DNA of 64,000 nt, taken from Tenggerimyces flavus (GTDB lineage: Bacteria > Actinomycetota > Actinomycetes > Propionibacteriales > Actinopolymorphaceae). Below are positions 9,084-14,826 of the stretch, one piece after another; the stretch's first letter is position 1; the number at the start of each line of letters is the position of its first letter. The stretch spans positions 1,364,001 through 1,428,000 of the forward strand of contig NZ_JAFBCM010000001.1 of NCBI RefSeq assembly GCF_016907715.1, written 5' to 3'. The translations under genes were made by a program, and so were the position numbers. Below the pieces are notes generated by a model. It was not told the DNA's origin. It did not search any database and saw only the letters and a list, made by a program, of their open reading frames with translations.

Positions 9084-9779
9084 GTGAACGTCGTGGTCAC
9101 TGTGCTCCTCGTCGAGGACGATCCGGCCATCCGGATCTCCCTGACCCGCGCCCTCACCGCCAAGGGCCACGTCGTCGCCTCCGTTCCGCACGGGGCCGCC
9201 GCGCTCAGCAGCGTCGTACGGGACCAGCCCGATCTCGTCGTTCTCGACCTCGGCCTGCCCGACATCGACGGCGCGAAGGTGCTCGACATGCTCCGCGGCG
9301 TCACCGACATCCCCGTGATCATCGCCACCGCAAGGGACGACGAACGGGAGATCGTCCGCCTCCTCGACGCCGGCGCGGACGACTACCTCGTCAAGCCGTT
9401 CGGCGCCGGCCAGCTCGATGCCCGGATCCGCGCCGTCCTGAGGCGTACGGCCGAGGACGCGCCCGCTGGCCCGATCGTCATCGGCGACCTCCAGGTCGAC
9501 CCCCGCGGCCGCGAGGCCAAGCTCAACGACAAGAAACTCGACCTCACCCCGAAGGAGTTCGAGCTCCTCCTCTACCTCGCCGAGAACGCCGGAACCGTCG
9601 TCTCCAAGCAGGACCTGCTCATCGAGGTCTGGCGCCAGCCGTACGGCGGCGCCGACAAGACCGTCGACGTCCACCTCTCCTGGCTCCGCCGCAAGCTCGG
9701 CGAGACCGCGAACGAGCCGCGTTTCCTCCACACGGTAAGGGGATTCGGCGTCAAACTCACCGCGCCGGACGCGTCGTGA
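9084..9779 (+). CDS. OmpR-family response regulator
   Basis: A 231-residue regulator with a receiver domain at the N-terminus (acidic pair Asp12/Asp13 in LLVEDDPAIR, phosphoacceptor Asp55 in LVVLDLGLPD, Lys in DDYLVKPFG) and a C-terminal winged helix (LTPKEFELLLYLAENAG, then VDVHLSWLRRKLGE). The GTG at 9084 is used; another GTG four codons later is possible. Its TGA overlaps the GTG start of the sensor kinase by four bases, which makes it the first gene of a classical two-component operon. The signal and targets are unknown. Confidence 0.92.
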   Translation: MNVVVTVLLVEDDPAIRISLTRALTAKGHVVASVPHGAAALSSVVRDQPDLVVLDLGLPDIDGAKVLDMLRGVTDIPVIIATARDDEREIVRLLDAGADDYLVKPFGAGQLDARIRAVLRRTAEDAPAGPIVIGDLQVDPRGREAKLNDKKLDLTPKEFELLLYLAENAGTVVSKQDLLIEVWRQPYGGADKTVDVHLSWLRRKLGETANEPRFLHTVRGFGVKLTAPDAS

Positions 9780-11071
9780 GGTCCCGGCTCGCGCTCCTGG
9801 TCGCCGCGACGACCACGCTCGTCCTCCTCGCGTTCCTCATCCCGCTCGGCCTGCTGCTCGGCAACGTCGCCGCCGACCGGGCCATCGGCGCCGCGACCCG
9901 CGAGGCCGAGACCGTCGTCCCGCTGGTCGCGACCCTCGACCGCGCCACGCTCACCAGCACACTCGACCTCATGCGCGAGGACGACAACCGCAAGGTGCCG
10001 TTGACGGTCTTCCTCGCCGACGGCACCGTCCTCGGCGTACCCGCCGAACGCAACGACGCCGTCGAGCTCGCCAGCCGCGGCAGCAGCATCACGGTCGAGG
10101 CGCCGGGCGGACGCGAGGTGCTGATCGCCGCGGTCGGCCTGCCCGGCGGTACGGCGGTCATCCGTACGTTCGTCTCCGACCAGGACCTCCGCGCCGGCGT
10201 CGCTCGCGCGTGGCTGATCCTCGGCGGCCTCGGCGCGTGCCTGCTCGCGCTGAGCCTGGTCGTCGCCGACCGGCTCGGCGCGTCGGCCGTACGGTCGATC
10301 CAACACCTCGACGACGTCGCCCGCCGGCTCGGTGAGGGTGACCTCGACGCACAGGCCAAGCCCGCGCCCATCCGGGAGCTGAACGAGGTCGGCACGACCC
10401 TCAACGCGCTCGCCGGCCGCATCCGCGACCTGCTCGCGCGCGAACGCGAGTCCGTCGCCGACCTGTCCCACCGCGTCCGTACGCCGCTCACTGTCCTTCG
10501 CATCGACGCCGAAGCGCTCAACGACCACGCCGAGGCCGAACGTCTCACCCGCGACGTGATCGCCCTCGAACGCGCCGTCGACCAGGTGATCATCGACGCG
10601 CGCCGCGGTACCAAGGGCGGCGACGCGAGCGACGCCACCGAGGTGGTCCGCGAGCGCGTCGAGTTCTGGCGGGCGCTCGCCGACGAGGAACGCCGTACGG
10701 TCACCAGTCAGCTCCCCGACACGCCCACGCCGGTTGCCGTCGGCGCCGACGACCTCGCGGCCTGCCTCGATGCGCTGCTGGGCAACGTGTTCGCCCACAC
10801 GCCCGAGGGAACCGCGCTCGCCGTCGAGCTCCGGCCCCGCCCGTCCGGCGGCGCGCTGCTCCTGGTGAGCGACGAGGGCCCGGGCTTCCGCGACGAGGCC
10901 GCGGCGCTCAGCCGGGGCGCGAGCGACGTCGGTTCGACCGGGCTCGGCCTCGACATCGCCCGCCGGACCGCGGAGTCCTCCGGCGGCGGCCTGGTGATCG
11001 GCAACGGCGACCAGAGCGGCGGCGCCAGGATCACCGTCGAGCTGGGCGCTCCGCTCCGGCCCGAGGCCTAG
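9776..11071 (+). CDS. Two-component sensor histidine kinase
   Basis: A 431-residue membrane kinase translated from a GTG that overlaps the regulator's stop. Two membrane segments (about residues 5-30 and 143-165) flank a sensor domain of roughly 110 residues facing outside. A HAMP-like linker follows. The H-box is ADLSHRVRTPLTVLR with the phosphorylated His at about 232. The catalytic domain shows an N-box variant (LDALLGNVFAHTPEG), then DEGPGF and GSTGLGLDIARR. All motifs needed for autophosphorylation are present. Partner is the regulator encoded immediately upstream. Confidence 0.92.
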   Translation: MRSRLALLVAATTTLVLLAFLIPLGLLLGNVAADRAIGAATREAETVVPLVATLDRATLTSTLDLMREDDNRKVPLTVFLADGTVLGVPAERNDAVELASRGSSITVEAPGGREVLIAAVGLPGGTAVIRTFVSDQDLRAGVARAWLILGGLGACLLALSLVVADRLGASAVRSIQHLDDVARRLGEGDLDAQAKPAPIRELNEVGTTLNALAGRIRDLLARERESVADLSHRVRTPLTVLRIDAEALNDHAEAERLTRDVIALERAVDQVIIDARRGTKGGDASDATEVVRERVEFWRALADEERRTVTSQLPDTPTPVAVGADDLAACLDALLGNVFAHTPEGTALAVELRPRPSGGALLLVSDEGPGFRDEAAALSRGASDVGSTGLGLDIARRTAESSGGGLVIGNGDQSGGARITVELGAPLRPEA

Positions 11072-11167
11072 TCGGGGACGCGCCAGGATCGCTGTCGAGC
11101 TGGACGCTCTGGCTAGCCTCGATCTTTCGTCCGGCGGTAGGTTCGTCCGGTCCGGCCCCGGCCCTGG

Positions 11168-11252
11168 GGCCAAGGATCATGTTTACATGATCATTGGCCG
11201 CTTTACGTGGGGTGGACGCCAGGTAAGGGGGCAGCTGGCCGGGTAAGGCGAC
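11168..11252 (+). repeat. Dispersed two-hairpin element, copy A
   Basis: A non-coding element between convergent genes, also present at 41539-41623. A 35-base core (11177-11211) matches the other copy at 34 positions and contains TCATGTTTACATGATCATT. The outer stem here is GGCCAA/TTGGCC (11168-11173 with 11194-11199). The following GCCGCTTTACGTGGG and GCCAGGTAA blocks are shared too. No transposase is linked. Lying between two 3' ends, it could act as a bidirectional terminator or be a REP/MITE-like sequence. Confidence 0.75.
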
Positions 11253-11259
11253 CACGAGG

Positions 11260-12039
11260 CTAGGGCAGGTACGACCGGAGGACGTTAGCCGCCTCGGACA
11301 CCGTCGGCCGGGACGACGTAAGCGGCGTCAGGCAGGCCAGGATCAGGTCTCGTAGCGGAGCTGGCAAGCGCCGGCCGAGGGGCGCGACTCTTCTGCGTAG
11401 TTGGGGAAAGTCATCCTCCTTCGCTTCCGGGAATGGACGACGGCGGGTCGCTGCTCGGTAGAGGACACCGCCCAGGGACCAGACGTCGGTTGCTGCGCTG
11501 ACCGGCGACCCCAGGGCCTGCTCGGGTGCCAGGTACTCGGGCGTTCCCGCGCCGGCCGCGTACGGGCCGGGCGGCTGGGCGAGGCCGAGGTCGAGCACCT
11601 TGAGCAGACCGCCCGACACGATCAGGTTGGACGGCTTGAGGTCGAGGTGGAGCACGTTGCGTCCATGCAGGTACGTCAGGGCAGAGCACAGCTGGCTGCC
11701 CAGCCGGGCCAGATCGACCACCGACAACCCATGCGAACGCCGCTGCACGAGCCGGCTCAGCACCTCGCCCGGCAGCACCTCCAGGATCACCGTGGGCCGC
11801 GGGCTCGAGACCGTCTCGTACGCACGCACCAGATGCGGGTGCGATAGACCCGACAGTAGCGCGCCCTCAGACACAAGGCGACCGACAACGGCGTTATCCA
11901 CAAGGCGAAACGCGCGGACCGACTTCGCGACACACAAGCAGTCCCGTGCGACCGAACGCACCAGCCGCACGTCGTAGTCGTAGTTCCGGCTCAGCAGCCG
12001 CACGGCCTCGTACCCACGCGGCAGCACCCGACCGCTCAT
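11260..12039 (-). CDS. Small soluble Ser/Thr protein kinase of the peptide/ABC operon
   Basis: A 259-residue protein that is one eukaryotic-like kinase domain and nothing else: no membrane segment, PASTA repeats or lanthipeptide lyase/cyclase domain. The ATP-anchoring Lys is at 39 (CVAKSV) with its Glu at 58. The catalytic loop reads HLDLKPSN (131-138) in place of HRDLKPxN, the metal motif is DLG (150-152) rather than DFG, and TPEYLAPE closes the activation segment. The glycine loop is degenerate. It is likely active, but the variant loop lacks the HRD arginine, so activation-loop phosphorylation may not be needed. Its ATG overlaps the stop of the ABC gene, and the 46-residue peptide upstream is an obvious candidate substrate. 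Confidence 0.88.
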   Translation of the reverse strand: MSGRVLPRGYEAVRLLSRNYDYDVRLVRSVARDCLCVAKSVRAFRLVDNAVVGRLVSEGALLSGLSHPHLVRAYETVSSPRPTVILEVLPGEVLSRLVQRRSHGLSVVDLARLGSQLCSALTYLHGRNVLHLDLKPSNLIVSGGLLKVLDLGLAQPPGPYAAGAGTPEYLAPEQALGSPVSAATDVWSLGGVLYRAATRRRPFPEAKEDDFPQLRRRVAPLGRRLPAPLRDLILACLTPLTSSRPTVSEAANVLRSYLP

Positions 12040-13826
12040 GACGCCAACCCCCGCACCCGCGAGTCGGACACGACCCGCCCACCGTCCAACGTCACCACCC
12101 GATCCGCGTACCCCATCAGCTCGCGATCGTGCGTGATGAGCAGCGTCGTACGACCATTCATCAACCGCCGCAGGGGTTCCACGACCTTCCGCGTCGTCGA
12201 AGCGTCGAGGCTCGCCGTCGGCTCGTCGAGGATCAGCACCGGCGCCTGCCGGATCAACGCCCGCGCGATCGCGACTCGCTGCCGCTGCCCACCGGACAAC
12301 CGCCGCCCGCGCTGCCCGACACTGGAGTCGAATCCCGAGGGCAGGTCGAACGCGAAGTCCGTCACCGCCGCCGCCTGCGCGGCAGCGAGCACGGCACCGC
12401 GCGACGCGCCAGGCACGCCGTACAAGATGTTGTCCGCGACAGAACGATCGAACAGCATCGTCTCCTGCAACACCACCGCGAACTGCGACCGCAGCGATGC
12501 CAGCTCATACGACCGAATGTCCACGCCATCAAGGCGAACGGCCCCAGCAGACGGGTCGTTCCACCGCATCAGCAGCTTCGTCAACGTGGACTTGCCCGCA
12601 CCGTTCTGTCCCATCACCGCCACCACCTCGCCCGGCGCGATCTGCAACGACAGCCGATCGAGCGCCGGCCGCGAAGAACCCTCGTAGGAGAACGACACGG
12701 AGTCGAAACCCACCGCCCCACGCGACCGCGGCGCAGCGAGCGCACCAGGCGAAGACACCACCGCGGGACGGCTGTCGAGCACCTCGAGCAACCGCTCCGC
12801 GGAAGCCGAAGCGCTGTACACCGTCGTCGCGAGCCGCGAGGCTCCACGGATAGGCCCATACAGCTGAGTGAGGTACGCGACGAAAGCGAGCAACCCGCCG
12901 ACCGTCAACCGGCCTTGGGAAAGCTCCCACACCCCGAGCCCCAGCACGAGCAACCCACCCACCATCTCGACCAGCTCGACAGCAGGCGTGTAGAGAGAGG
13001 ACATCCGGTTCGAGGCCAGCCCCGCAGACAGCCGCGCCAACCCCTCGGCGTGCAGCCGCGAGGACTCCGCACGTTCCTGCCCGTACGCCTGGACCAACGG
13101 CATGTGAGCGAGCGTCTCCTCCGCGACGGCGCTCACCCCTCCCGAACGGCGGCGCTTCTCCCGCGACGCCTTCTTGATCTGCCGCGAGAAGTGCCGCGCC
13201 ACCAGCCAGAACAGGGGAGCGACGACGAACGCCAACAACGCGAGCTCCCACCGCAGCATGAACGCGAGCGTGGCGAAGATGGCGATGCGCGCCGCGTACG
13301 AGATCGTCCGCGTCACCCCGCTGAGCACGAGCGACTCGATCGCCCCGATGTCCCCGGTCAGCCGCGAGACCACGTCACCGGCGCGATGACGCTCGAAGAA
13401 CGACGGCGACAGCCCGAGGAGGTGGTCGAAAACGCCGCCACGCAAGCGGAGCAGGAACCGTTCGGCCATCCAGGCCGAGATCGAGCTCGACGCGTACGAC
13501 ACGACGCCACCGGCCAGAGTGATCGCGACGAGCGCGGCAGCCAGCGGCCACAGAGCCGACGGCCGCCCCGGAACGATGGCCGAGTCGATGATGTGCTTGA
13601 AGATCCAGATCGAAGCCGCGGCGGCGAGCGGCGTCAGAACGACGAAGACGAGGCTGAGCAGGAGGACGGGCAGATCGGGTCGCACGTACGGCCAGAACCG
13701 CCGGAACATCGCTCGGATCGGCACGACCGGCGCGGCGGCCACCACCCCGTCGGTGGTCTCGGAGACGGTGAGAAACCGCCGGAGCCGGCGGGACAGTGCC
13801 CGCCGGCTCCGAAGCTGGTCCGACAT
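12036..13826 (-). CDS. ABC exporter, fused membrane and ATPase domains
   Basis: A 596-residue half-transporter of the MsbA/LmrA type, expected to work as a homodimer. About 45 N-terminal basic residues precede six membrane helices (about 50-330). The ATPase has Walker A GQNGAGKST (406-414), signature LSGGQ (510-514), Walker B VLILDEP and H-loop LLITHD. There is no C39 peptidase domain, so it would not itself trim a double-glycine leader. It starts only three bases after the stop of the 46-codon peptide gene and overlaps the kinase gene, so the three proteins are made from one message. Export of the peptide, modified or not, is the natural reading. Confidence 0.9.
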   Translation of the reverse strand: MSDQLRSRRALSRRLRRFLTVSETTDGVVAAAPVVPIRAMFRRFWPYVRPDLPVLLLSLVFVVLTPLAAAASIWIFKHIIDSAIVPGRPSALWPLAAALVAITLAGGVVSYASSSISAWMAERFLLRLRGGVFDHLLGLSPSFFERHRAGDVVSRLTGDIGAIESLVLSGVTRTISYAARIAIFATLAFMLRWELALLAFVVAPLFWLVARHFSRQIKKASREKRRRSGGVSAVAEETLAHMPLVQAYGQERAESSRLHAEGLARLSAGLASNRMSSLYTPAVELVEMVGGLLVLGLGVWELSQGRLTVGGLLAFVAYLTQLYGPIRGASRLATTVYSASASAERLLEVLDSRPAVVSSPGALAAPRSRGAVGFDSVSFSYEGSSRPALDRLSLQIAPGEVVAVMGQNGAGKSTLTKLLMRWNDPSAGAVRLDGVDIRSYELASLRSQFAVVLQETMLFDRSVADNILYGVPGASRGAVLAAAQAAAVTDFAFDLPSGFDSSVGQRGRRLSGGQRQRVAIARALIRQAPVLILDEPTASLDASTTRKVVEPLRRLMNGRTTLLITHDRELMGYADRVVTLDGGRVVSDSRVRGLAS

Positions 13827-13829
13827 CGG

Positions 13830-13970
13830 TCAGGAGCTCTTTCCCGTCCGGGTGCGGGTCTGCGACTTCGACCCGCCGGACTTCCCGCTCTTGCCGGTGC
13901 GGGTACGCGTCCGGGTGGACGAGCCCTTCCCGCCGCTGATCGCGGCGGTCAGGTCGGTGAAGAGAGCCAT
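13830..13970 (-). CDS. 46-residue Ser/Thr/Arg/Lys-rich peptide, possible exported RiPP-like precursor
   Basis: A small gene with a perfect AAGGAGG ribosome site eight bases before its ATG at 13970. The product begins MALFTDLTAAISGGKGSS, an amphipathic leader-like part ending in a Gly-Gly. It continues with a cationic repeat region: TRTRTRTGKS at residues 19-28, a GKSGGSKSQ linker, and TRTRTGKSS at 38-46. Eighteen residues are Ser or Thr, ten are Arg or Lys and one is acidic. There is no Cys, so lanthionine rings cannot form. The stop is three bases from the start of the ABC exporter, and a Ser/Thr kinase follows. I know no family for it. A phosphorylated, exported peptide is the working idea. 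Confidence 0.75.
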   Translation of the reverse strand: MALFTDLTAAISGGKGSSTRTRTRTGKSGKSGGSKSQTRTRTGKSS

Positions 13971-14088
13971 GTGGTTCGCCTCCTTGATCGGTTTTCCCTT
14001 GCTGTTATGAGCTTTCGGGACACCGAGGAGACGTTCAATGGGCAGCGGGGTTTCTTAGCACTCCCTTAGGGAGGTGATGAGGGTACGT

Positions 14089-14826
14089 TCAGATCCCGCA
14101 CTGGCTGGCGGACCAGAACCGGCTGGACTTGTGCGCGACGTGGGTGTGGTCGGAGTGGCCCGGGTACCCCGGACCGAGGATCTCGCGGAAGCCGTGGTTG
14201 CGCGCCTGCTGCGCCATCCGGCAGAGCGTGTGCGGTCCGGCGCCGAGGTCCACCGCGTCGCCGTACAGGTGCCGGCTGGTCGCCGATCCGCCCGCCGCGT
14301 TGTTGCAGGCCACGCTGCGGAAACCGCTCGTCACGCGGATCGGCTGGTCGCCGAGCGCGTGCCGCATCGCTTGCAGTTTCCACATGCTGACCAGGGCGTT
14401 CGCCTTGGCCTGCGCGGCGGACACGTTGCCGCCCGCCCAGGTGGAGTTGCAGCGGTTGAGTTCGGCATAGCTGAAGTTGACTGGCGTGCAGTCGTCGTCC
14501 TGGAGTTGGTAGAGCTTGGTGTACGTAGCGGGGCCGGCCACGCCGTCGGCGCCGAGCCCGTACGCCTGCTGGAAACGGACCAACGCGGCCTTGGTCGCCG
14601 GCCCGAAGTCGCCGTCCAGTCCGAGAACGGCGCCGTTCCCGGGGTAGCCGGAGATGCGGATCTGGAGCTGGCGTACGTCGTCGCCGTTGGCGCCCTGGCT
14701 GAGGTTGCGGTTCCACGTGTAGCAACCGTCCGCCGCGGCTGGTCCCGCGACGGTGACGACCGCGGCCAGTGATGTCGCGAGGATCAGCGCGGCGGCGGAC
14801 AGGATTCGAAGGGTGCGACCGAGCAT
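14089..14826 (-). CDS. Secreted D-Ala-D-Ala carboxypeptidase (peptidase M15) with peptidoglycan-binding domain
   Basis: A 245-residue exported protein. A signal peptide of about 33 residues ends near PAAADGCYTW. Residues about 40-115 form a PG_binding_1 domain (GANGDDVRQLQIRI, then LGLDGDFGPATKAALVRFQQAYGL). The remainder is an M15A zinc carboxypeptidase of the Streptomyces albus G type: SRHLYGDAVDLG supplies His and Asp ligands, and DHTHV the final His pair. It should cleave the terminal D-Ala of cell-wall stem peptides. Just after its stop lies the palindrome CTCCCTTAGGGAG (14061-14073). It is transcribed in the same direction as the peptide operon but separated by 118 bp. Confidence 0.88.
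   Translation of the reverse strand: MLGRTLRILSAAALILATSLAAVVTVAGPAAADGCYTWNRNLSQGANGDDVRQLQIRISGYPGNGAVLGLDGDFGPATKAALVRFQQAYGLGADGVAGPATYTKLYQLQDDDCTPVNFSYAELNRCNSTWAGGNVSAAQAKANALVSMWKLQAMRHALGDQPIRVTSGFRSVACNNAAGGSATSRHLYGDAVDLGAGPHTLCRMAQQARNHGFREILGPGYPGHSDHTHVAHKSSRFWSASQCGI

Follow-up and report, generated by a model that had tools for sequence, protein, structure and literature searches.

A conserved peptide, exporter and kinase cassette of actinobacteria and its possible role in phosphopeptide secretion

Our analysis concerns three genes in a 64,000-nucleotide stretch of the Tenggerimyces flavus genome (contig NZ_JAFBCM010000001.1, positions 1,364,001 to 1,428,000; hereafter the window), which encode a small charged peptide, an ATP-binding cassette (ABC) exporter and a stand-alone protein kinase. 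The peptide, the exporter and the kinase form one conserved unit across actinobacteria, and the peptide is under purifying selection. We consider it reasonably probable that this unit is a dedicated phosphopeptide secretion cassette, in which the peptide would be phosphorylated by the kinase while still in the cytoplasm and then secreted by the exporter. The best support for phosphorylation ahead of export is indirect and comes from a sister clade of kinases whose neighbouring genes are predicted, from sequence, to encode exported Ser/Thr-repeat proteins.

Results

Organisation of the cassette in the window

The three genes lie on the minus strand in the order peptide, exporter, kinase, and were read from the sequence as open reading frames (ORFs). 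Their features are as follows.

13830-13970, minus strand: charged peptide gene of 46 codons (ORF with ribosome site; homologous ORFs stand ahead of the exporter in 79/84 loci)
13979-13985, minus strand: Shine-Dalgarno sequence AAGGAGG of the peptide gene (read from the sequence)
13780-13811, minus strand: 13-bp stem-loop directly past the peptide stop, overlapping exporter codons 6-16 (RNA fold)
12036-13826, minus strand: MsbA-like ABC exporter of 596 aa with no C39 peptidase domain (Pfam ABC_membrane and ABC_tran)
11260-12039, minus strand: stand-alone protein kinase of 259 aa, non-RD (HLD, DLG) (Pfam Pkinase, 119.6 bits; no further domain reported)

The exporter ORF begins three bases past the peptide ORF, and the kinase ORF overlaps the exporter ORF by four bases (ATGA). 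A preliminary description of this DNA had reported this tight coupling, with a 46-codon ORF, its ribosome site, the three-base gap and the four-base overlap, and all three genes are indeed where it had placed them. It had also stated that the kinase carries no lyase or cyclase domain, the exporter no C39 peptidase and the peptide no Cys; Pfam reports none of these domains in the window exporter and kinase, and the window peptide, which has no Pfam match, is indeed free of Cys. No Rfam family was found in window positions 11000-14600, and the idea of a structured RNA was dropped.

Conservation of the three-gene unit

Profile searches based on the kinase were run over 394 genomes from the class, 341 from one family, 346 from the phylum and 246 from one genus, and in each search a high-scoring group was set off by a score gap from weaker kinases. 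The class, family and phylum searches gave 10 (in 9 genomes), 49 and 12 high scorers, five of which were shared, hence 66 loci, all of which were fetched; the genus search added 22 new high-scoring loci, likewise fetched. This genus is labelled Streptomyces-type here, a name inferred from two Streptomyces plasmids that match its kinase at 62-65%. High-scoring kinases occur in 23/246 genomes of the Streptomyces-type genus and 45/341 of one family, rough figures that include a few lone kinases and broken copies, and in 1/35 and 1/5 genomes of families f21 and f31; such presence counts are lower bounds because few candidates were scored per genome in the first pass. An exporter-based scan of genome contigs returned five loci with general ABC similarity only (27-36%). 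Among 56 host relatives, a single one, from another family (G037), has both an exporter and a kinase highly similar to those of the window (44% and 42%), and there the exporter is preceded by a Ser/Arg-rich ORF of 51 codons that has a ribosome site.

In 61 of the 66 first-collected loci, the kinase is preceded at a distance of up to 1.5 kb, and in most cases directly, by an exporter gene of the cassette family; in the window, in G037 and in most other loci the two genes overlap or stand close together, the exporter first. The five loci outside this count are L107, where the exporter is truncated, L180, L182, L191 and L221; in L221 a peptide ORF with a GTG start lies directly ahead of the kinase, with no cassette-family exporter in the fetched stretch. 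A peptide ORF precedes the exporter in 57 of the 61 exporter-kinase loci (L216, one of the 57, is cut by a contig end) and in 20 of 21 Streptomyces-type loci with an exporter among the 22 further loci (the contig of L265 breaks off within the locus, and the degenerate L268 has no peptide). When the two plasmid loci are included, the whole tally is 79 of 84 exporter-kinase pairs. The plasmids, S. cathayae NZ_CP121683 and S. nigrescens NZ_AP026074, were the sole two records with the cassette found among 72,556; in the former, the annotation calls the peptide a hypothetical protein, and the matches to exporter and kinase are broken across frames. The peptide was seen in seven of the eight family codes that have an exporter-kinase pair (f1, f4, f21, f22, f31, f60 and f84), the eighth being f16 (G107, L108).

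By a uniform rule, a qualifying ORF lies upstream of 51/62 homologous exporter-kinase loci vs 0/28 other ABC exporters in same-family or same-order genomes, and a small ORF in this place thus exceeds chance. The rule, written after family members had been seen, called for a basic, Ser/Thr-rich ORF of 30-80 aa, preceded by a Shine-Dalgarno sequence and at most 700 bp upstream. The preliminary description had asked whether a short ORF always precedes the kinase-exporter pair, and had named homologous loci lacking any small ORF as grounds for giving up its idea; the ORF is there in the great majority of loci and falls short of 'always' in four of the 61 and in L268. Beyond the three genes, no fourth gene common to all loci was found in the gene calls of 22 loci read by eye.

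Several single loci depart from the common layout. L194 has an exporter, a kinase and a hairpin visible by eye ahead of the exporter but no peptide gene, as if the peptide alone had been deleted. Downstream of the divergent kinase (HGD) of L108 lies a 40-codon His/Arg/Trp-rich ORF with a ribosome site (L108 6993-7115, plus strand), a doubtful candidate. Degenerate copies, with a truncated exporter, a stop in the kinase or frame-split exporter and kinase matches, were seen at L107, at L268 and on plasmid NZ_CP121683 (L236).

The peptide

The peptide ORF evolves as a protein: in 14 close relatives, all pairwise comparisons taken together give a ratio of non-synonymous to synonymous substitution rates (dN/dS) of 0.18, and codon position 3 accounts for 946 of the 1389 differences; the decay of the frame in close relatives, which the preliminary description had given as a possible refutation, is therefore not what these genomes contain. 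Tandem gene copies are present at L225, at L229 and at L215, where three copies encode one and the same peptide. In 75/83 peptides, residues 5-18 include a P[A/H] motif, mostly as M-A-x-F-x-x-L-x-P-A, and this N-terminal segment is kept across distant families while the tail changes fast and in kind. The window peptide starts with MALFTDLTAA, showing A-A where most relatives show P-A, and continues into a Ser/Thr/Arg/Lys/Gly repeat tail; it has five Arg, none adjacent, and at a net charge of +9 is among the less charged peptides. With its conserved leader and its variable core, and under selection as it is, the peptide has the traits of an encoded precursor of ribosomally synthesised and post-translationally modified peptides (RiPPs) in the broad sense.

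Tails may be poly-Arg with SRSRS or TNT ends, RGRGRG with TSTRTRTGH, or Lys/Thr/Ser-rich, and in 59 peptides the tail is on average 16% Ser and 8.5% Thr. Most Streptomyces-type tails consist largely of His, Gly, Asp and Arg, and past residue 8 the Ser/Thr count can fall to two, so that the preliminary description of a Ser/Thr/Arg-rich peptide holds for many tails but not for these. What the two groups share is a predominance of Arg, His and Lys, taken together, among the tail residues; it is the Ser/Thr content that varies. In the 61 first-collected peptides, two of them Streptomyces-type, Ser/Thr recur at every second residue (265 lag-2 pairs vs 121.7 in shuffles), with a z of 17 that is inflated by the inclusion of close relatives. 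Cys occurs in 5/83 peptides, and no Pfam or NCBIfam family matched among the 41 peptides scanned.

The 100 nt past the peptide stop fold more stably than shuffles at 76 loci (median z -3.2, 75% below -2), the window itself having a minimum free energy of -56.7 and a z of -2.7. A hairpin after the precursor gene is a familiar RiPP arrangement that sets a high precursor-to-enzyme ratio.

The exporter

Acidic residues at positions 72, 82, 113, 114, 284 and 287 of the window exporter are found in 75-97% of 60 family exporters vs 0-26% of 28 controls, the six having been picked from a longer list for this contrast. Judged by position, they probably lie mainly in the membrane domain, and they fit a cationic substrate. 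In the window, a single case, fewer of these acids coincide with a less charged peptide (net +9). For the other exporters, the C39 domain was judged by length only, with 58/60 at 586-649 aa from the estimated start.

The kinase and its sister clade

Lys39, Glu58, Asp133, Asn138 and Asp150, the residues of an active eukaryotic-type kinase, are kept in 65/65 high-scoring kinases. The position of the HRD motif reads HLD in 64/65 and HGD in 1/65 of them, and the RD-type (PknB-like) signature is thus missing. PknB-type Ser/Thr kinases are nonetheless the nearest solved relatives by sequence and have the Pkinase domain in common with the cassette kinase, which differs from them in its HLD, its shortness and its place in a three-gene unit. 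In a quick maximum-likelihood tree of 58 kinases, the HLD kinases lie on one side of a branch (Shimodaira-Hasegawa-like approximate likelihood ratio test support 98) and divide into a clade of cassette kinases (93) and its sister clade (99); on the other side, apart from them, lie the 20 HRD kinases included from related genomes. A role in anti-phage defence was also considered and rejected, as the PADLOC matches look like general kinase and ATPase matches.

The sister clade came from 14 weaker kinases that were first taken as controls, all of which have HLD and 12 of which have DLS too. Since these controls proved to be a sister system, the HLD/DLS signature is not specific to the cassette. 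In 13 of the 14, judged by eye, the preceding gene encodes a protein that starts with a signal-like segment and has Ser/Thr-Arg/Lys-Asp/Asn repeats and, usually, an Asp run; by a uniform rule, written after the sister loci had been seen, a repeat-protein neighbour is present in 12/17 sister kinases vs 0/23 HRD kinases. The signal peptides are predictions made from a hydrophobic stretch only. In the sister-system loci (L109-L111, L113-L118 and L232-L235), a non-RD kinase follows the repeat-protein gene, often with two-component genes beyond the kinase, and no ABC exporter was found directly upstream of the kinase. Two unrelated Ser/Thr-repeat partners beside two sister clades of kinases are the strongest indication that these partners are what the kinases act on.

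Neighbouring genes

Immediately downstream of the cassette, on the opposite strand, are response regulator and sensor kinase genes (window 9084-11071, plus strand, named by eye), and two-component genes are apparently also found near L225, L227, L229, L183 and L104, possibly by chance. Upstream, on the same strand as the cassette (window 14089-14826, minus strand), is a gene for a secreted protein resembling a peptidoglycan-binding D-Ala-D-Ala carboxypeptidase, and an L,D-transpeptidase-like gene lies upstream in L039 and L199 (both named by eye). A zf-HC2 anti-sigma-like gene stands downstream of the cassette in L102 and L105 (by eye) and on plasmid NZ_CP121683 (annotated).

Discussion

In the mechanism that we propose, the first gene would give rise to a small, highly charged and probably disordered peptide, made in excess. 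Its N-terminal segment (M-A-x-F-x-x-L-x-P-A) might serve as a docking site for the kinase, by analogy with ThurKC, whose leader is reported to form a short helix and to contact the N-lobe of the kinase by way of its hydrophobic residues (PMC10604976). The cytoplasmic kinase would then phosphorylate Ser/Thr in the Ser/Thr-Asp patch past the N-terminal segment and in the tail. Phosphorylation could mask charge and keep the peptide harmless or export-competent, much as one may picture for the SRPK/protamine pair; SRPK1 phosphorylates protamine 1, an Arg-rich polycation (PMC10952393). Many cassette tails end in SRSRSRS or TRTRTG, a likeness to SRPK1, protamine and SR proteins that is one of analogy only, and those systems belong to the eukaryotic nucleus and are not exported, whereas the cassette peptide is proposed to be. 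The exporter, with its distinctive family acidic residues, would secrete the peptide with no C39-type trimming. For a role outside the cell we can offer a guess: the peptide might bind or attack the polyanionic surfaces of competitors, or coat the producer.

In this proposal phosphorylation and export are inferred steps, as are N-terminal recognition and the extracellular role, and a number of observations weigh against it. Ser/Thr are scarce in the Streptomyces-type tails (8% Ser, 5% Thr; 24 peptides), so that the kinase may have no target beyond a short Ser/Thr patch, or may act on something else. Peptide charge shows no significant correlation with how many of the acids an exporter has (rho 0.22, p 0.10, 55 loci), and in the window exporter four of the six positions are occupied by Ser. 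The catalytic-loop Lys135 is kept in 55/65 kinases and replaced in 10/65, mostly by Arg. Some exporter-kinase loci have no peptide ahead of the exporter (L194, L223, L230, L108 and the degenerate L268), some kinases have neither exporter nor peptide (L180, L182, L191), and the gene calls of the 22 loci, read by eye, revealed no obvious gene for a phosphatase or a processing protease in the vicinity.

Lanthipeptide biosynthesis is a known chemistry that the cassette calls to mind. Class III/IV lanthipeptide loci (LanKC, LanL) encode a small precursor, an ABC exporter and an enzyme that includes a protein-kinase domain, and the cassette likewise has a small peptide, an ABC exporter and a kinase-domain enzyme; it differs from them in its charged-repeat tails, and the traits of that class, namely a phospho-Ser/Thr lyase linked to the kinase, a LanC-like cyclase domain and core Cys, are lacking or, for Cys, almost so. 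The kinase could still be the first half of a dehydratase, with a lyase (and a cyclase) supplied from elsewhere in the genome to yield dehydroamino acids. Such a division of labour has precedents: in kintamdin, the kinase and a separate HopA1-type lyase (KinD/KinC) act together, and HopA1-type lyases are named for split kinase/lyase RiPPs that include kintamdin, class V lanthipeptides and thioamitides (PMC9415263). These loci have, like the cassette, a separate kinase gene; they also have the HopA1-type lyase, for which 11 of 12 cassette hosts gave no match. HopA1 was matched in one host only (G746, not the window's own genome) and LANC_like in four (G000, G249, G291 and G746), the three LANC_like matches in the window's genome being far from the cassette. 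LANC_like was unmatched in 8/12 hosts, and neither was found in 8/12, the search having used the models PF17914 and PF05147 and not other phospho-lyase families; this argues against lanthipeptide chemistry, and extends to whole genomes, for these two models, what the preliminary description had said of the kinase alone. The scarcity of Cys (5/83 peptides) and the NCBIfam scores of the window kinase, far below the cut-offs (LanL 70 of 650 bits, LanKC 19 of 575), point the same way. A lanthipeptide made with trans-acting enzymes was thus rejected as unlikely after the search of the 12 hosts, and in our estimation dehydration by a borrowed lyase is very improbable. The cassette is most likely not a LANTHIPEPTIDE.

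The kinase might instead act on the exporter or on regulators, gating the export of an unmodified cationic or His-rich peptide. This would suit the overlap or close succession of the kinase and exporter genes in the window, in G037 and in most loci, and also the Ser/Thr-poor tails of the Streptomyces type; it fits less well with L221, where peptide and kinase occur with no cassette-family exporter in the fetched stretch, and with the sister kinases, which adjoin predicted signal-peptide Ser/Thr-repeat proteins with no ABC exporter found directly upstream, and it leaves the strong Ser/Thr spacing of the first-collected tails unexplained. We therefore judge gating of this kind unlikely, while giving it more weight than the two ideas that remain. 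That the small ORF is a regulatory leader, an Arg- or His-codon attenuator governing the exporter and kinase with no product of its own, is suggested by the strong hairpin that stands ahead of the exporter, after stretches of consecutive Arg codons or an abundance of His codons. Such a leader would not be expected to keep its N-terminal segment across distant families while the tail shifts from Arg to Ser/Thr/Gly to His/Gly, to be tandemly duplicated as a whole gene, to have a low dN/dS or, as in L221, to stand directly ahead of the kinase, and the window peptide has just its five non-adjacent Arg; attenuation is accordingly very improbable. Hardly any credence is left for a kinase that modifies basic residues, by N-phosphorylation of Arg, His or Lys, or that transfers some other group. 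Arg/His/Lys are the commonest shared tail feature, with Ser/Thr varying, and the HLD/DLS active site is unusual, but HLD, mostly with DLS, is common to the sister clade with its Ser/Thr-repeat partners, and the nearest solved relatives by sequence are PknB. We know of no Arg or His kinase with the protein-kinase fold.

Phosphorylation of the peptide ahead of its export, which the preliminary description had put forward as a possibility, is the probable reading that we retain, and it may extend beyond the cassette. It is possible, if not quite probable in our view, that the whole non-RD kinase clade (HLD...DLS) serves polypeptides that are about to leave the cell, ABC-exported charged peptides in one branch and Sec-exported Ser/Thr-Arg-Asp repeat proteins in the sister branch, with phosphorylation of low-complexity repeats as the end modification and no dehydration or signalling step. 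Were this so, both branches would constitute a bacterial secretory-phosphoprotein pathway.

No description of a peptide-exporter-kinase cassette was found in the open-licence PubMed Central (PMC) literature, among the matches listed. The operon of precursor, exporter and modifying enzyme is a RiPP-like arrangement, and would be of a new kind if phosphorylated exported repeats are the end product, as the sister system suggests; poly-Arg, SR/RG-repeat and His-Gly-repeat cores are, to our knowledge, unlike known RiPP cores. The peptides are short enough for synthesis, which makes the idea directly testable. If it is true, actinobacteria would have a widespread route to secreted phosphopeptides and a peptide pathway in which a kinase acts without a lyase, and a group of bacterial kinases would gain a likely substrate encoded next door.

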